Origin: Pyruvatibacter mobilis
GTDB lineage: Bacteria; Pseudomonadota; Alphaproteobacteria; CGMCC-115125
Length of the DNA: 64,000 bases
Direction of reading: 5' to 3'
Assembly: GCF_012848855.1 (NCBI RefSeq)
Contig: NZ_CP051630.1
Span: forward strand, 1,963,501 to 2,027,500
Every line of letters starts with the position of its first letter. Positions within the stretch are counted from its first letter, which is position 1. Both the position numbers and the translations under genes were made by a program. The notes under the pieces were generated by a model. That model saw only the letters and a program-made list of their open reading frames with translations. It did not search any database and was not told the DNA's origin. Of the stretch, positions 58,338-64,000 are shown piece by piece.

Positions 58338-58653
58338 TGAAATTCCTCAAGTCTTTCGGGTGTGACCGTGTGGTCGGCCTGCCGGGGCGGGGGCGCGGGA
58401 AACGATCCGCCAGCGCGGAATAATCCGGGCTGCGCGGGGTGGCGCGCACCATGTCCAACACTGACAGGAAAGCCATTCGTTGCGGGGAGTTACCGCATCA
58501 GGCCAAGGGGGGCAAGTGGGCAGGGTTACGCAGCGTCGCGGGCTCCAAGCGCCCGCCCCCACCCCAAAACAAAACCCCGCCGGCATGACACCGGCGGGGC
58601 GGACCCGCATGCACGGGGTGATGCGATGCGGGCATAAGGACTTACGGGTCCGG
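58338..58653. other. 316-base gap between cynS and glcB
   Basis: Contains the cynS terminator (58565-58599) and the glcB promoter region on the minus strand, where a loose TTGGAC hexamer near 58453-58458 could serve as a -35 element. No gene is seen. Confidence 0.5.
58565..58599 (-). terminator. Terminator of the nitrate/cyanate operon
   Basis: CCCCGCCGG (58575-58583) pairs with CCGGCGGGG (58591-58599) around CATGACA; on the minus strand it is followed by TTTTGTTTTG. It lies 55 bases after the cynS stop. Confidence 0.85.
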
Positions 58654-59094
58654 TCAGTACTTCTTGAACTTGAGGAACTTGCCGGACATCACGATCTGCA
58701 CCCGGTCGCCATTGGGGTCGGGCTTGCGGGAGATTTCCATGTCGTAGTCGATGGCCGACATGATGCCGTCGCCGAACTCTTCCTCGATGAGCTTCTTGAA
58801 GGTGGTGCCGTAGACCTGGACGATTTCATAGAGGCGGTAGATGAGCGGGTCGGTGGGCACATCCATGCCGAGGGAGCCGCGCGACGGGATCTTGGCGAGG
58901 CCCTTCCTGGCTTCCGGGATGCCGAGCATGTCGGCGGCCTTGGCGGCGGCGTCTTCCGGCAGGGCCATCTGGCCAAGGAGGGCTGCTGTGACGAACACCG
59001 GCGACATGCCGACGCCGTCGGCGACTTCCTTATAGGTAAGGCCCTTGTCGTCCATGGCATCTTCGATGGCCTGGGTGAGTGCGTAGCGGTCCAT
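58654..59094 (-). CDS. cynS: Cyanate hydratase (cyanase)
   Basis: A 146-residue cyanase, which converts cyanate and bicarbonate to ammonia and carbon dioxide. The catalytic residues align with the E. coli enzyme with a nine-residue shift: Arg87 and Glu90 in LIYRLYEIV and Ser113 in GIMSAIDYDME. The N-terminal helix-turn-helix-like part (YKEVADGVGMSPVFVTAALLG) is present. It is the last gene of the transporter operon, so cyanate made available by the transporter can be used as nitrogen. Confidence 0.96.
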   Translation of the reverse strand: MDRYALTQAIEDAMDDKGLTYKEVADGVGMSPVFVTAALLGQMALPEDAAAKAADMLGIPEARKGLAKIPSRGSLGMDVPTDPLIYRLYEIVQVYGTTFKKLIEEEFGDGIMSAIDYDMEISRKPDPNGDRVQIVMSGKFLKFKKY

Positions 59095-59180: not shown

Positions 59181-60125
59181 TCAGCCCCCGGCCATGTGGC
59201 GGGGGGCTTGCGGTTTTCCCGGCGAGGTGGCCTCCGGGATTTCCGTATCGACCGGGTGGACGGCGCTGACGCCGATGCCCGGCGAGACGACCGGCGGGTG
59301 CCGCTTGTCGAACTCCGTGCCGGCGATTTCCTCGGTGAAGCTCTTGGAGCGGGTGACGAGGAAATCCATCAGGTGGTTGCGCATGGGATAGAAGCGCGGA
59401 TGCTTGAACATGCTCTCGCGCGTACGGTCGCGCGGCAGCGTGTTCTCGACGATCTCGGCGATGCAGGCCTCCGGCCCGTTGGTCATCAACACGATCTTGT
59501 CGGCGAGGTAGAGCGCTTCATCCACGTCATGGGTGATCATGAAGCTGGTCTGTTTGCGGGCGTCGCAGATGGCGAGGATCTCATCCTGCAGGCCGCCGCG
59601 TGTCAGCGCGTCCAGCGCGGAGAACGGCTCGTCCATCAGCAGCACGTCGGGCTCGAGACTCAGGGCGCGGGCGATGCCCACGCGCTGCTTCATGCCGCCG
59701 GAGAGCTGGGCGGGCTTGCGGTCCGCTGCCTCCCCCAGATTGACCAGCTCGAGATATTTCATCGCGTGCGCGCGGATCTGTGCCGACGACCAGGACGGGT
59801 TGCGGGACTTCACCGCCAACTCGATGTTGCCCAGTGCCGACAGCCAGGGCATGAGGGCATGGCCCTGGAAGATGACCGCGCGGTCGAGGCTGGGGCCGGA
59901 AATCTCCTTGCCGTTGACGATGATGCCGCCGGCGGACGGTGTTTCGAGACCAGCCAGGATGTTGAGCAAGGTAGACTTGCCGCAGCCGGAATGGCCGACG
60001 ACGCAGATGAACTCCCCCTCCTCGATGCCGAGCCACAGGTCGTCGAACACGGTCATGGTGCCGCCGCCGCCCGGATTGGGGTAGCGCTTGGCGAGGCCTT
60101 CGATGCTGATGAGTTTGGTGCTCAT
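59181..60125 (-). CDS. Nitrate/cyanate ABC transporter ATPase
   Basis: A 314-residue ATPase of the NrtD/CynD/TauB type: Walker A GHSGCGKST, signature LSGGMKQRVGIA, Walker B VLLMDEPFSALD and switch His in MITHDVDEALYL. The C-terminal 50 residues past the ATPase fold (KRHPPVVSPGIGV) are Pro-rich. AAGGAGG lies before the ATG. It energises the permease encoded just upstream. Confidence 0.92.
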   Translation of the reverse strand: MSTKLISIEGLAKRYPNPGGGGTMTVFDDLWLGIEEGEFICVVGHSGCGKSTLLNILAGLETPSAGGIIVNGKEISGPSLDRAVIFQGHALMPWLSALGNIELAVKSRNPSWSSAQIRAHAMKYLELVNLGEAADRKPAQLSGGMKQRVGIARALSLEPDVLLMDEPFSALDALTRGGLQDEILAICDARKQTSFMITHDVDEALYLADKIVLMTNGPEACIAEIVENTLPRDRTRESMFKHPRFYPMRNHLMDFLVTRSKSFTEEIAGTEFDKRHPPVVSPGIGVSAVHPVDTEIPEATSPGKPQAPRHMAGG

Positions 60126-60135
60126 GGGACCTCCT

Positions 60136-60987
60136 TCAGTCCGCGTAGGACACGCGCTGCTGGAAGAAGGCGACGATCAGGTCGAGCACCATTCCGATCA
60201 CCCCGATGAACAGGATGGCAGCGATGACATTGGTGATGGAGAGGTTGTTCCACTCGTTCCAGACGAAGTAGCCGATGCCTGTTCCGCCCACGAGCATTTC
60301 GGCGGCCACGATCACCAGCCAGGCGATGCCGATGGAAATGCGCATGCCGGTGAGGATGGTTGGGGCGGCGGCGGGCAGGATGACGCTCAGGGCCGTGCGC
60401 CACGGTCCGAGTTCGAGCGTCTTGGCGACGTTCACATACTCAGTGCGCACGGCGCCGACGCCGAAGGCCGTGTTGATGAGCATCGGCCACAGGGAACAGA
60501 TGAAGATGACGAAGATGGCGCTCGTCATGGAATCCTGGATCGTGTAGAGCGCAAGCGGCATCCAGGCGAGCGGCGAGATGGGCTTGAGAAGCTGGATGAA
60601 CGGGTCCAGCGCCTTGAACAGGAGCGGGCTCATGCCGATGACGAAGCCCAGCGGGATGGCCACCAGCGCGGCCAGTCCGAAGCCCACCAGCACCCGCATG
60701 ATCGAATAGGCCAGCTGGATGCCGATGCCCTTGTCGTTGGGGCCTGCGTCATAGAACGGGTCGGTGACGTGGCGCTTGAGTTCGCCGAAGACTTCAGCCG
60801 GGGCGGGGAACGCGGATTCGCCCTTCGCCTGCGGCCCAAGAAGGGCCGCAAGCTCAGGGTCCATCCCCACAGGTGCTTCTGTCTGTCCGCTGGCACTGAG
60901 TAGCTGCCAGGCGAACAGGAAGCACCCGAACAGCACCATGGACAGAAGCGCTGCGCGCAAGGTCATGGGGATAGCATCGACGCGCAT
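60136..60987 (-). CDS. Nitrate/cyanate ABC transporter permease
   Basis: A 283-residue permease with about six membrane spans and the binding-protein-dependent transport EAA-like loop (TEYVNVAKTLELGPWRTALSVILPAAAPTILTGMRI). Close to NrtB/CmpB. GGAGG is six bases before ATG 60987, and the start overlaps the stop of the substrate-binding gene (TGATG/ATGA type). Confidence 0.92.
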   Translation of the reverse strand: MRVDAIPMTLRAALLSMVLFGCFLFAWQLLSASGQTEAPVGMDPELAALLGPQAKGESAFPAPAEVFGELKRHVTDPFYDAGPNDKGIGIQLAYSIMRVLVGFGLAALVAIPLGFVIGMSPLLFKALDPFIQLLKPISPLAWMPLALYTIQDSMTSAIFVIFICSLWPMLINTAFGVGAVRTEYVNVAKTLELGPWRTALSVILPAAAPTILTGMRISIGIAWLVIVAAEMLVGGTGIGYFVWNEWNNLSITNVIAAILFIGVIGMVLDLIVAFFQQRVSYAD

Positions 60988-62387
60988 CACGACCTCCGGA
61001 TCGCGAAGGAATTGACGTATTCCTCCGGCTTGGTCGGGTCGAAGGTCTTGCCCATGACCTCATAGGACTCGTAGGTCGCCTCCGGCGGTGTGAGGCCCAT
61101 TTCGGTCATCACCTTCTGGGCGTCGGTTGCGAGATAGACCTGCTCGGCGACGCCCTTGTAGTCCACGTCGCCGGAGATATAGCCCCAGCGTTTCATCTGG
61201 GTGAGAATCCAGATGGCCATGGAGTGGTACGGGAACGGATCAAAGTCGATCCGGTCCGGCACCTTCTGGATACCGCCGAGGCCGTCCGCAAAGGTGCCGG
61301 TGAGAACCTGCTCGACCACCGTGGTGGGCTGGTTGAGGTAGTTCTTCGGCGAGATGGCGGCTGCCACTTCCTTACGGTTGTCCTGGTCGGACGCGTAGGC
61401 CGTGGCATCGATGATGGACTTGTAGAGCGCGATGAAGGTGTTGGGCATTTCATCGACGAATTTCTGGCTGGCGGCGAAAGCGCAGCAGGGATGCCCGTCC
61501 CAGATTTCCTTGGTCAGCTTGTGGATGAAGCCGACGCCGTCATAGACCGCGCGCTGGTTGAACGGGTCCGGTGCCAGGTAGCCGTCCACATTGCCGGCGG
61601 CGAGGTTGGCGACCATCTCGGGCGGCGGCAGCACGCGGATCTGGATGTCCGTGTCCGGATCAAGCCCATGCTCGGCCACGTAGTAGCGCAGCAGGAAATT
61701 GTGCATGGAATAGTCGAACGGCACGGCGAACTTGAAGCCCTTCCACTTGGACGGGTCGTCGTTCTTGTCCTTGTGCTTGGTGGCAAGGGTGATGGCCTGA
61801 CCGTTGATATTTTCCACCGCCGGCATGGTCCACGGATTGGCGGTGGAGCCCGCCCCCATAGTGATGGCGAGCGGCATGGGCGTCAGCATGTGGGACGCGT
61901 CATATTCACCGGACAGGGACTTGTCGCGCGCCACGGCCCAGCCGGCGGTCTTGATGACATCGACGTCGAGGCCGTACTTCTCATAGAAGCCCATGGGCTT
62001 GGCCATGATGATGGGCGTCGCGCAGGTGATGGGCACGAAGCCGACGGACAGCTTGGTCTTCTCAAGCTGACCGGAAAGTTCCTGCGCCACAGCCTTTGCC
62101 GCACCGAGGGGGAAGATGTCGCTCAGGGCGGTCATGGCTGTTGCCGCGCCCACGGCGGTGAGGAAGCTGCGGCGGGCCATATCCGTGCCGAAGACGGCCT
62201 GCATGACGGCGGACTCGACGTGGCGGGACAGGATTTCTTCGGAGGTCACCTCCTCCGCCGGGTCATCTTCCTTGCCCTCGAGGCGGGCGACCGCTGCGTC
62301 ATGGTCTTCCTGACTGTGGTGGCCGCCGCATGAACAGCCGCCCCACAGTTTGGCCTTCGGATCAAAAGGGTCCTGATCAAAGCTCAT
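60987..62387 (-). CDS. CmpA/NrtA-family substrate-binding protein with Cys/His N-terminus and internal Tat-like signal
   Basis: A 466-residue NrtA/CmpA-type binding protein (LSVGFVPITCATPIIMAKPMGFYEKYGLDVDV, MLTPMPLAITMGAG, NVDGYLAPDPFNQRAVYDGVGFIH). Before a Tat-like signal (MARRSFLTAVGAATAMTAL, about residues 68-90) lies an unusual acidic leader with a clustered CSCGGHHSQEDH motif near residue 17, which might bind a metal. AGGAG is nine bases before ATG 62387. Ligand could be nitrate, nitrite or cyanate; cynS in the operon favours at least cyanate. Confidence 0.9.
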   Translation of the reverse strand: MSFDQDPFDPKAKLWGGCSCGGHHSQEDHDAAVARLEGKEDDPAEEVTSEEILSRHVESAVMQAVFGTDMARRSFLTAVGAATAMTALSDIFPLGAAKAVAQELSGQLEKTKLSVGFVPITCATPIIMAKPMGFYEKYGLDVDVIKTAGWAVARDKSLSGEYDASHMLTPMPLAITMGAGSTANPWTMPAVENINGQAITLATKHKDKNDDPSKWKGFKFAVPFDYSMHNFLLRYYVAEHGLDPDTDIQIRVLPPPEMVANLAAGNVDGYLAPDPFNQRAVYDGVGFIHKLTKEIWDGHPCCAFAASQKFVDEMPNTFIALYKSIIDATAYASDQDNRKEVAAAISPKNYLNQPTTVVEQVLTGTFADGLGGIQKVPDRIDFDPFPYHSMAIWILTQMKRWGYISGDVDYKGVAEQVYLATDAQKVMTEMGLTPPEATYESYEVMGKTFDPTKPEEYVNSFAIRRS

Positions 62388-62445: not shown

Positions 62446-62529
62446 AAAAAAGCCGCATTCCCTCAGCGCACCTCATGGAAGAGATGCGAGACGGAAGCGG
62501 CTTCGCTCCAGGGGCCCGCCCTTGGACCC
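62446..62529 (-). promoter_or_regulatory. ANTAR-type antitermination leader with intrinsic terminator
   Basis: On the minus strand: a hairpin GGGTCC-AAGGGC-GGGCCC (62529-62512) whose six-base loop has A at position 1 and G at position 4, as ANTAR proteins require; then a second short hairpin GGAGC-GAAGCC-GCTTCC (62509-62493); then an intrinsic terminator whose 5' arm AGCCGCTTCC overlaps the second hairpin and whose 3' arm GGAATGCGGCT runs into six T (62451-62446). NasT binding the loops would stop terminator formation. An extra hairpin with loop TTCCAT lies inside the terminator. Confidence 0.75.
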
Positions 62530-62577
62530 GGTATCTGGTGGGGCACACTCGACCTTGAGGCGCCCGCCCTTCTCCTT

Positions 62578-62593
62578 AGCAACGGTCGTGCCA
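62578..62593 (-). promoter_or_regulatory. Sigma-54 (RpoN) promoter
   Basis: Read on the minus strand, TGGCACGACCGTTGCT matches the -24/-12 consensus TGGCACG-N4-TTGCW at every fixed position. The start site would be near 62567, giving a leader of about 180 bases that contains the whole antitermination region. An imperfect dyad with GCCGCAACC arms (62616-62639) lies just upstream. Confidence 0.85.
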
Positions 62594-62742
62594 GACTCCG
62601 ACGTTGGCCGGAAGTGCCGCAACCACGCGGGTTTGCGGCGATGCGGACTTCAACAGGTACGCAAGATCACGCGGCGCGCTGCGCAAACAGGCAGCACCTG
62701 CCCAAGGAACAGGCAAGCAGAATATAACCGTATACGGAGGGA

Positions 62743-63330
62743 TTAGAGACCGACGCGGGACGCGACGAGGATACTGTCGGCGATCTCGACGATGGGGCGC
62801 TTCTGGTCCATGGAGGCCCGGCGCATGAGCGCATAGGCGTCCTTCTCGCTCAGGCCGCGCTGCTCCATCAGGATGCCCTTGGCCTTCTCGATGGTCTTGC
62901 GGTGTTCAAGCTCGGTGGACAACGCTTCGACGCGGGTCTCAAGCTCGTGGAAGCGGTTGAAGCGGGCGATGGCGAGATCGACGATGGGCCTGATCCGGTC
63001 AGGCTGCATGCCGTCCACCACATAGGCGCTGACGCCCGCCTCCATGGCGGCCTGGGTCATGTCCGGGTCGCTCTGATCGACGAACATGACGACGGGACGC
63101 TGCACCTCGCGGGATACGCGGAACATCTGCTCCACCGTATCGCGCTTGGGGTTCTCGAGATCGACGATGATGACCGACGGGTTGAGCACGGCGATACGGG
63201 CGAGCAGATCAATCGTATCGGAAATGATGGTGACGTTTTCATAGCCGGCAGCCCCCAGTCCCGCGCGGATCAGCTCCGCGCGTTCGGGCATCTGGTCGAT
63301 GACGGCGATGGAAACGGGTGTGTCAGGCAT
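62743..63330 (-). CDS. nasT: NasT-type ANTAR antitermination regulator
   Basis: A 195-residue protein: receiver-like N-terminal domain (SIAVIDQMPERAELIRAGLG, SVIIVDLENPKRDTVEQMF, VVMFVDQSDPDMTQAAMEAGVSAYVVDG) and a C-terminal ANTAR RNA-binding domain (HRKTIEKAKGILMEQRGLSEKDAYALMRRASM). NasT binds nitrate-operon leader RNA when released by NasS. Its usual partner nasS is not seen next to it in this window. The transport operon follows on the same strand after its own sigma-54 promoter. Confidence 0.93.
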   Translation of the reverse strand: MPDTPVSIAVIDQMPERAELIRAGLGAAGYENVTIISDTIDLLARIAVLNPSVIIVDLENPKRDTVEQMFRVSREVQRPVVMFVDQSDPDMTQAAMEAGVSAYVVDGMQPDRIRPIVDLAIARFNRFHELETRVEALSTELEHRKTIEKAKGILMEQRGLSEKDAYALMRRASMDQKRPIVEIADSILVASRVGL

Positions 63331-63596: not shown

Positions 63597-64000
63597 TCAG
63601 AGCTTCCAGTCGACCTGCAGCCAGAACTTCTGGCGGTCAGCCGGGCCGCCTGAGGGGCCGTCATAGTCCGCGTATTTCGCAGTGACCGAGAGCTTCTTGT
63701 TGATCACGCCCTTGAGGAGCAGGTCCACCTCATCACCCAGGCTGCCGCCGCCGGTCTCGGCTTCAAAGTCATGATAGATGGCGGCTGCGACGATCTTCTT
63801 GAACGGGCCGACTTCGCCCGTTGCATAGCCGATGCGGCCATAGAGATCCTCAATGCCGGTTGCCGGGGTGGCGAGGAAGACATCGGCCCAGCCCTGGAAC
63901 TTGTGCAGAGTAGCCAGCGGCGTGCTGAAGCCGCGGGTGCCGTCGCCCTCAAGCGACTCATAGCTCACCGATGCATCGAACCCGCCGACCTTGGTGCCGA
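63597..64000 (-). CDS. Alginate-export/porin-like outer membrane protein (N-terminal part outside window)
   Basis: The frame is open to the window edge, giving 133 residues of C-terminus. It shows alternating beta-strand patterns and the segment STPLATLHKFQGWADVFLATPATGIEDLYGRIGYA, typical of alginate-export-family porins, and ends in the aromatic-rich strand RQKFWLQVDWKL as outer-membrane barrels do. The neighbouring nasT suggests it may be an anion channel used with nitrate/cyanate uptake (inference). Confidence 0.7.
   Translation of the reverse strand, partial: GTKVGGFDASVSYESLEGDGTRGFSTPLATLHKFQGWADVFLATPATGIEDLYGRIGYATGEVGPFKKIVAAAIYHDFEAETGGGSLGDEVDLLLKGVINKKLSVTAKYADYDGPSGGPADRQKFWLQVDWKL

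Follow-up and report, generated by a model that had tools for sequence, protein, structure and literature searches.

A predicted two-step control of a cyanate operon in Pyruvatibacter mobilis by a sigma-54 promoter and an ANTAR-type leader

Introduction

Nitrogen-controlled (Ntr) initiation combined with antitermination by an ANTAR protein is an established arrangement, described for nasF of Klebsiella and for the nas genes of Paracoccus (PMC5424462, PMC3369931). Like the locus described here, the nas leaders of Paracoccus denitrificans and Azotobacter vinelandii (NasT/NasS) and the nasF leader of Klebsiella (NasR) have an Ntr/sigma-54 start, a hexaloop leader and a terminator. Tandem G4 hexaloops, with a P2 hairpin that overlaps the terminator, are likewise found in the eut leaders of Enterococcus faecalis, the targets of EutV (PMC3369931, PMC8934654). 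Cyanate genes are known from a different kind of control. The cynABDS genes of Pseudomonas pseudoalcaligenes are induced by cyanate and repressed by ammonium via CynF, a sigma-54 activator (PMC6627978). A 2025 survey of sigma-54 lists cyanate lyase and ANTAR proteins as separate sigma-54 targets (PMC12316311).

Here we describe a cynABDS operon of Pyruvatibacter mobilis, found in a 64-kb stretch of the genome (the window), whose upstream region carries both a sigma-54 promoter and an ANTAR-type leader. In contrast to the nas systems, the target is cyanate transport and cyanase, and the adjacent ANTAR protein has neither a NasS partner nor a NIT sensor domain. The locus resembles cynFABDS of P. 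pseudoalcaligenes CECT5344 (PMC6627978) in its cynABDS order, its sigma-54 promoter and its expected ammonium repression, but the divergent activator CynF is absent and control has apparently moved from initiation to antitermination. We searched open-access text and found no report joining ANTAR control to cyanate genes. The class of mechanism is already known; as far as the open-access literature shows, it is new that such a leader serves cyanate genes, that CynF has been lost and that the orphan ANTAR protein has no sensor beside it.

Results

The operon lies on the minus strand in the order cynA-cynB-cynD-cynS. The first gene (60987-62387) encodes a Tat-exported, cynA-type substrate-binding protein of the NrtA/CmpA family (NMT1_2, 294 bits), and its orthologs sit within cynABDS operons. 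It is followed by genes for the permease CynB (60136-60990; TIGR01183 above cut-off), the ATPase CynD (59181-60125; TIGR01184 above cut-off) and the cyanase CynS (58654-59094; TIGR00673 and NF002773, both above their cut-offs). A GC-rich hairpin with T-runs at 58567-58634, between cynS and a malate synthase G gene, is probably the operon terminator; a weak Rfam match to anti-hemB at 58634-58567 fell below cut-off and was discarded, the element having the look of a terminator after cynS. There is no divergent cynF at the window locus. The genome encodes four sigma-54 activators, namely NtrC, FlbD, one of response-regulator type and one beside NtrC; CynF is not among the three of these that were read, and the fourth is the one that adjoins NtrC.

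The cyn promoter is situated about 200 bases 5' of cynA, on the minus strand of the gap between the ANTAR gene and cynA. At 62578-62593 it presents an exact TGGCACG-N4-TTGCT box (TGGCACGACCGTTGCT), the complete -24/-12 consensus of sigma-54/NtrC-dependent promoters. The pattern TGGCACGNNNNTTGCW has this single match in the window, where 0.02 are expected, which bears out the full-match RpoN promoter that an earlier sequence-only reading had placed at this position. For a genome-wide count we used the looser pattern TGGCACN5TTGCW, which occurs six times in the 3.33-Mb genome, with its reversed form as a control giving no matches. The box is kept in the sister species (TGGCACACCGGTTGCT). From the spacing of the GG (62592/62591) and GC (62580/62579) elements, transcription is predicted to start on the minus strand near 62567, 12 nt past the -12 GC, in agreement with the start site suggested earlier. 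The genome encodes NtrC (TIGR01818 above cut-off), and its own nas promoter has a 10/10 NtrC palindrome (TGCACACTGATTGTGCA). The best NtrC-type palindrome 5' of the cyn promoter scores 7/10, a level frequent in background, and none there is convincing. A 12-nt inverted repeat at 62616-62639 was considered as an upstream activator site and rejected, being absent from the sister species. Activation of the cyn promoter by NtrC is what we infer.

The leader that follows contains three hexaloop hairpins and an intrinsic terminator, all on the minus strand. P0 (62541-62565) has 9 bp, one bulge and the loop AAGGUC; P1 (62512-62529) has 6 bp and the loop AAGGGC; and P2 (62493-62509) has the loop GAAGCC. 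P0 and P1 form a tandem pair with full A1/G4 loops; P2 has G4 but G1, and is the only one of the three to lack A1. The terminator (62446-62504) consists of a stem at 62504-62452 and a T6 tract at 62451-62446, with a folding energy of -35.6 kcal/mol. The sequence-only reading had described an A1/G4 hairpin and a T6 terminator in series; its coordinates hold, but the hexaloop hairpins number three. Bases 62504-62493 are shared by P2 and the 5' arm of the terminator, so the two structures are mutually exclusive, and the register of P2 against the terminator is that of P2 in nas leaders. The open P2 form is weak on its own (-3.5 kcal/mol). The terminator form is favored by about 14 kcal/mol, and antitermination would therefore have to be kinetic and protein-driven, as is also assumed for other ANTAR leaders. 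The less canonical loop of the second hairpin had been taken as a possible sign of a variant class, a view we reject. The P2 loops of nas leaders (AACGCT, AAAGCC, AGCGCT, AACGTC and GACGCC) cover an equal range, and GAAGCC thus marks no separate class; the G1/G4 loop GACGCC belongs to an ordinary nas leader (L189).

ANTAR-type leaders for comparison were taken 3' of nasS in other alphaproteobacteria. A descriptor consisting of a first hexaloop, a second hexaloop overlapping the 5' arm of a terminator, and a tract of T5 or more has one match in the window, the cyn leader. It found nothing when the window was shuffled 40 times and the leader 5000 times. Across 1.57 Mb searched on both strands, a total that includes overlapping loci, its matches are mostly nas, porin or cyn leaders. 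A covariance-model search, which the sequence-only reading had proposed as a check, was carried out with a model (R1) built from 11 nas and porin leaders, the cyn leaders being left out. The base helix of R1 covaries in the nas leaders. R1 matches the window's cyn leader with 41.1 bits (E=1.2e-10) and that of the sister species with 40.5 bits. Genome-wide it gives three strong matches in this genome (G000), the porin, cyn and nas leaders, and three in the sister genome (G001), a nas-linked porin leader, the cyn leader and a second nas-linked site; the training set included this genome's porin leader and the top G001 match, but not the cyn leaders or the nas leader of this genome. CynF-type cyn loci scanned with R1 gave no convincing match, and an Rfam scan returned no ANTAR-leader family for the cyn leader. 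The cyn leader belongs to the nas-leader RNA family, and the match to the ANTAR-leader model upholds the earlier proposal of a promoter and an ANTAR-type leader in series 5' of the transporter-cynS operon.

Comparison with the sister species shows an intergenic region that is poorly conserved outside discrete blocks, which are the promoter, the P0 core, P1, P2 and the terminator. The P0 block is TGCCTCAAGG-CGAG, the P1 block ATACCGGGTCC-AGG-CGGGCCC and the P2 block GAAGCGAAGCCGCTTCC; a further kept block, listed after P2, is GCGGCTTTTTT. Position 1 of the P1 loop is A in the window and G in the sister species, and the P2 loop GAAGCC is identical in both. This conservation, together with the R1 E-value, the empty shuffles and an exact promoter lying 5' of the leader, counts against the view that the hairpins merely end a transcript coming from upstream, or fold by chance, and that cynA is transcribed from a downstream promoter. 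A start site downstream of the leader would be compatible with the sequence, but we rejected a chance fold or an unrelated terminator on the strength of the shuffles, R1 and the conservation, and regard this explanation as highly improbable.

Two layouts are seen among the leaders, in which an A1/G4 hexaloop stands either 18-22 nt or 41-54 nt 5' of the P2 loop. In the far layout an extra hairpin stands between the far hexaloop and P2. Of the 17 leaders, 11 carry a far hexaloop, whereas shuffled sequences would yield 0.17; close and far hexaloops occur together in the window leader and in L181. These layouts were recorded in leaders L049, L181, L183, L188, L189, L194, L198, L205, L006 and L044 and in the window leader. 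Antitermination by EutV is abolished when the linker is extended by 20 nt (PMC8934654), and the intervening hairpin of the far layout may keep the geometry.

The gene upstream of the promoter (62743-63330, minus strand) encodes an orphan ANTAR protein of the NasT family, which we propose as the cognate antiterminator. Its Pfam domains (Response_reg, and ANTAR with 73 bits) give it the receiver-ANTAR architecture of NasT. The sister species has an ortholog with 76% identity in the same position 5' of cyn. The gene had been called nasT, an assignment that does not stand. It is a paralog without NasS, 43% identical to the genome's NasT; no nasS adjoins it, and its neighbors are a porin gene and cynA. 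The true nasT-nasS pair lies 0.6 Mb away, at C1:2.63 Mb, in the order nasT-nasS-leader-nrtA-nrtB-nrtC-nirB-nasA, with a sigma-54 box and a leader of its own. The nasS gene was found there only (C1:2630166-2631290), and the surrounding region (L006, C1:2618000-2637000) is a complete assimilatory nitrate locus. The porin gene 5' of the orphan ANTAR gene has a leader (P1 AAGGAC, P2 AACGCT, T6) and a near-exact sigma-54 box (TGGCACGGCCTGTGCT). This leader is on the minus strand just beyond the window end at 64000 (L007:2595-2695, equal to C1:2028394-2028494). In sister genomes the porin adjoins nasTS, which suggests that gene and leader have been relocated together.

These findings also bear on whether the working regulator could be canonical NasT under NasS, which would make cynABDS responsive to nitrate or nitrite and leave the orphan ANTAR protein a secondary or modulating role; an oxyanion signal acting via NasT had been suggested in the sequence-only reading. 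No cytoplasmic oxyanion sensor of this family other than NasS was found in the genome, a single RNA family takes in the cyn, nas and porin leaders, and the porin leader beside the orphan ANTAR gene has nasTS as its neighbor in sister genomes. Against this, both species keep an orphan ANTAR gene at their cyn leader, two further cyn-linked ANTAR genes occur in genome bins where NasS was not found, and cyanase is not induced by nitrate in Pseudomonas (PMC6627978). We consider regulation by NasT doubtful, and infer that the orphan ANTAR protein is the main regulator.

How the orphan ANTAR protein would receive its signal can be approached through its receiver domain and its relatives. A search of solved structures returned Rv1626, EutV, NasR and AmiR, with EutV among the nearest. 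The protein has a degenerate receiver that lacks the canonical Lys, and in two distant cyn-linked ANTAR proteins (L131 and L082) the phospho-acceptor Asp is replaced by Glu. A classical phosphorelay is therefore unlikely. EutV is phosphorylated by EutW, whereas here no kinase was identified for the degenerate-looking receiver. AmiR, from the AmiR-AmiC complex (1QO0), is likewise an ANTAR protein with a degenerate receiver and is gated by a binding-protein-like partner, but no such cytoplasmic partner is encoded beside the orphan ANTAR gene. By default one would expect gating by a bound partner, of the kind seen in AmiR-AmiC and NasT-NasS. Nothing encoded nearby is such a partner, and the cyn-ANTAR neighborhoods have no sensor gene in common. 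The signal might be sensed by NasS acting in trans, by the receiver domain or by a partner that escaped recognition. It is also conceivable, if rather unlikely, that the protein has no ligand-gated sensor and is active once made, the leader tying cyn to the nitrogen-controlled level of the ANTAR protein. The lack of a common sensor gene and the receiver substitutions fit such an arrangement, as does the position of the ANTAR gene, which lies 266 bases past a porin gene that is itself under an ANTAR leader. However, the characterized ANTAR systems EutV, AmiR, NasR and NasT are all signal-gated, cyanate is toxic, and the cyanate genes of Pseudomonas are substrate-induced (PMC6627978).

A survey of cyn loci sets this arrangement beside the usual one. 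Among 80 cynA relatives, about 61 are accompanied by a CynF-like sigma-54 activator, which is divergent in most cases. In CynF-type loci the sigma-54 box, where seen, is mostly 45-100 nt before cynA, with no attenuator. The ANTAR-linked cyn loci of this genus have the box at -207/-226 and a leader. Thirty sampled alphaproteobacterial cyn loci repeat the CynF pattern, with ANTAR in this genus only. The orphan ANTAR protein appears to replace CynF in this genus. Beyond it, an Aquisalimonas locus (L131) has an orphan ANTAR gene directly 5' of cynA and a probable ANTAR attenuator ending in T7, which matches the descriptor and is weakly matched by R1 (15.9 bits, E=0.07), its P1-P2 spacing being long. 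The genome bin of this locus (G059) contains two cynA copies, one with the ANTAR leader and the other near a CynF-like gene, as well as a second ANTAR gene. In L082, from a bin labelled as the planctomycete Algisphaera, the ANTAR gene lies directly 3' of cynS; its leader, in which hexaloops and a sigma-54 box are seen, lacks a T-tract and was not accepted as a confirmed attenuator. No NasS was found in the L131 and L082 bins, a search limited by bin completeness. In the ANTAR tree this genus stands apart from L131 and L082, both long branches, so ANTAR proteins were probably recruited to cyn operons at least twice. A more speculative extension, for which we claim little confidence, is that a distinct NasS-independent class of ANTAR proteins repeatedly replaced CynF at cyanate operons and senses cyanate or a cyanase-linked signal via the degenerate receiver, with no binding-protein partner.

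Discussion

We propose that the region 62593-62446 imposes two-step control on cynABDS, by sigma-54 initiation and ANTAR antitermination, and assign this reading a probability of roughly 0.75. It draws on features present in the sequence, which are the promoter, the hairpins, the overlap of P2 with the terminator, their conservation, a leader that belongs to the nas-leader family, the orphan ANTAR gene and the absence of CynF. In the proposed mechanism, sigma-54 polymerase would start near 62567, most likely upon an NtrC signal of nitrogen shortage, and by default the transcript would end at the terminator (62504-62446). The active orphan ANTAR protein would bind the hexaloop hairpins, P0 and P1 first and P2 next. 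Closed P2 would then block the AAGCCGC-GCGGCUU pairing and permit readthrough into the cyanate transporter and cyanase genes. Both termination in the leader and its relief are predictions from sequence. Cyanate may be the inducer. Ammonium control could remain with the sigma-54 promoter, and the response to substrate could be transferred to the RNA.

For the wider family, the comparison reveals two layouts among alphaproteobacterial ANTAR leaders, with the A1/G4 first hexaloop either close to P2 or far from it with an intervening hairpin. The orphan ANTAR protein makes signal input to NasS-less ANTAR proteins directly testable. The locus further suggests that the control of a single operon can pass from regulated initiation to regulated elongation while its sigma-54 promoter is retained, the suggested shift being from a substrate-specific sigma-54 activator to a substrate-specific RNA-binding antiterminator.
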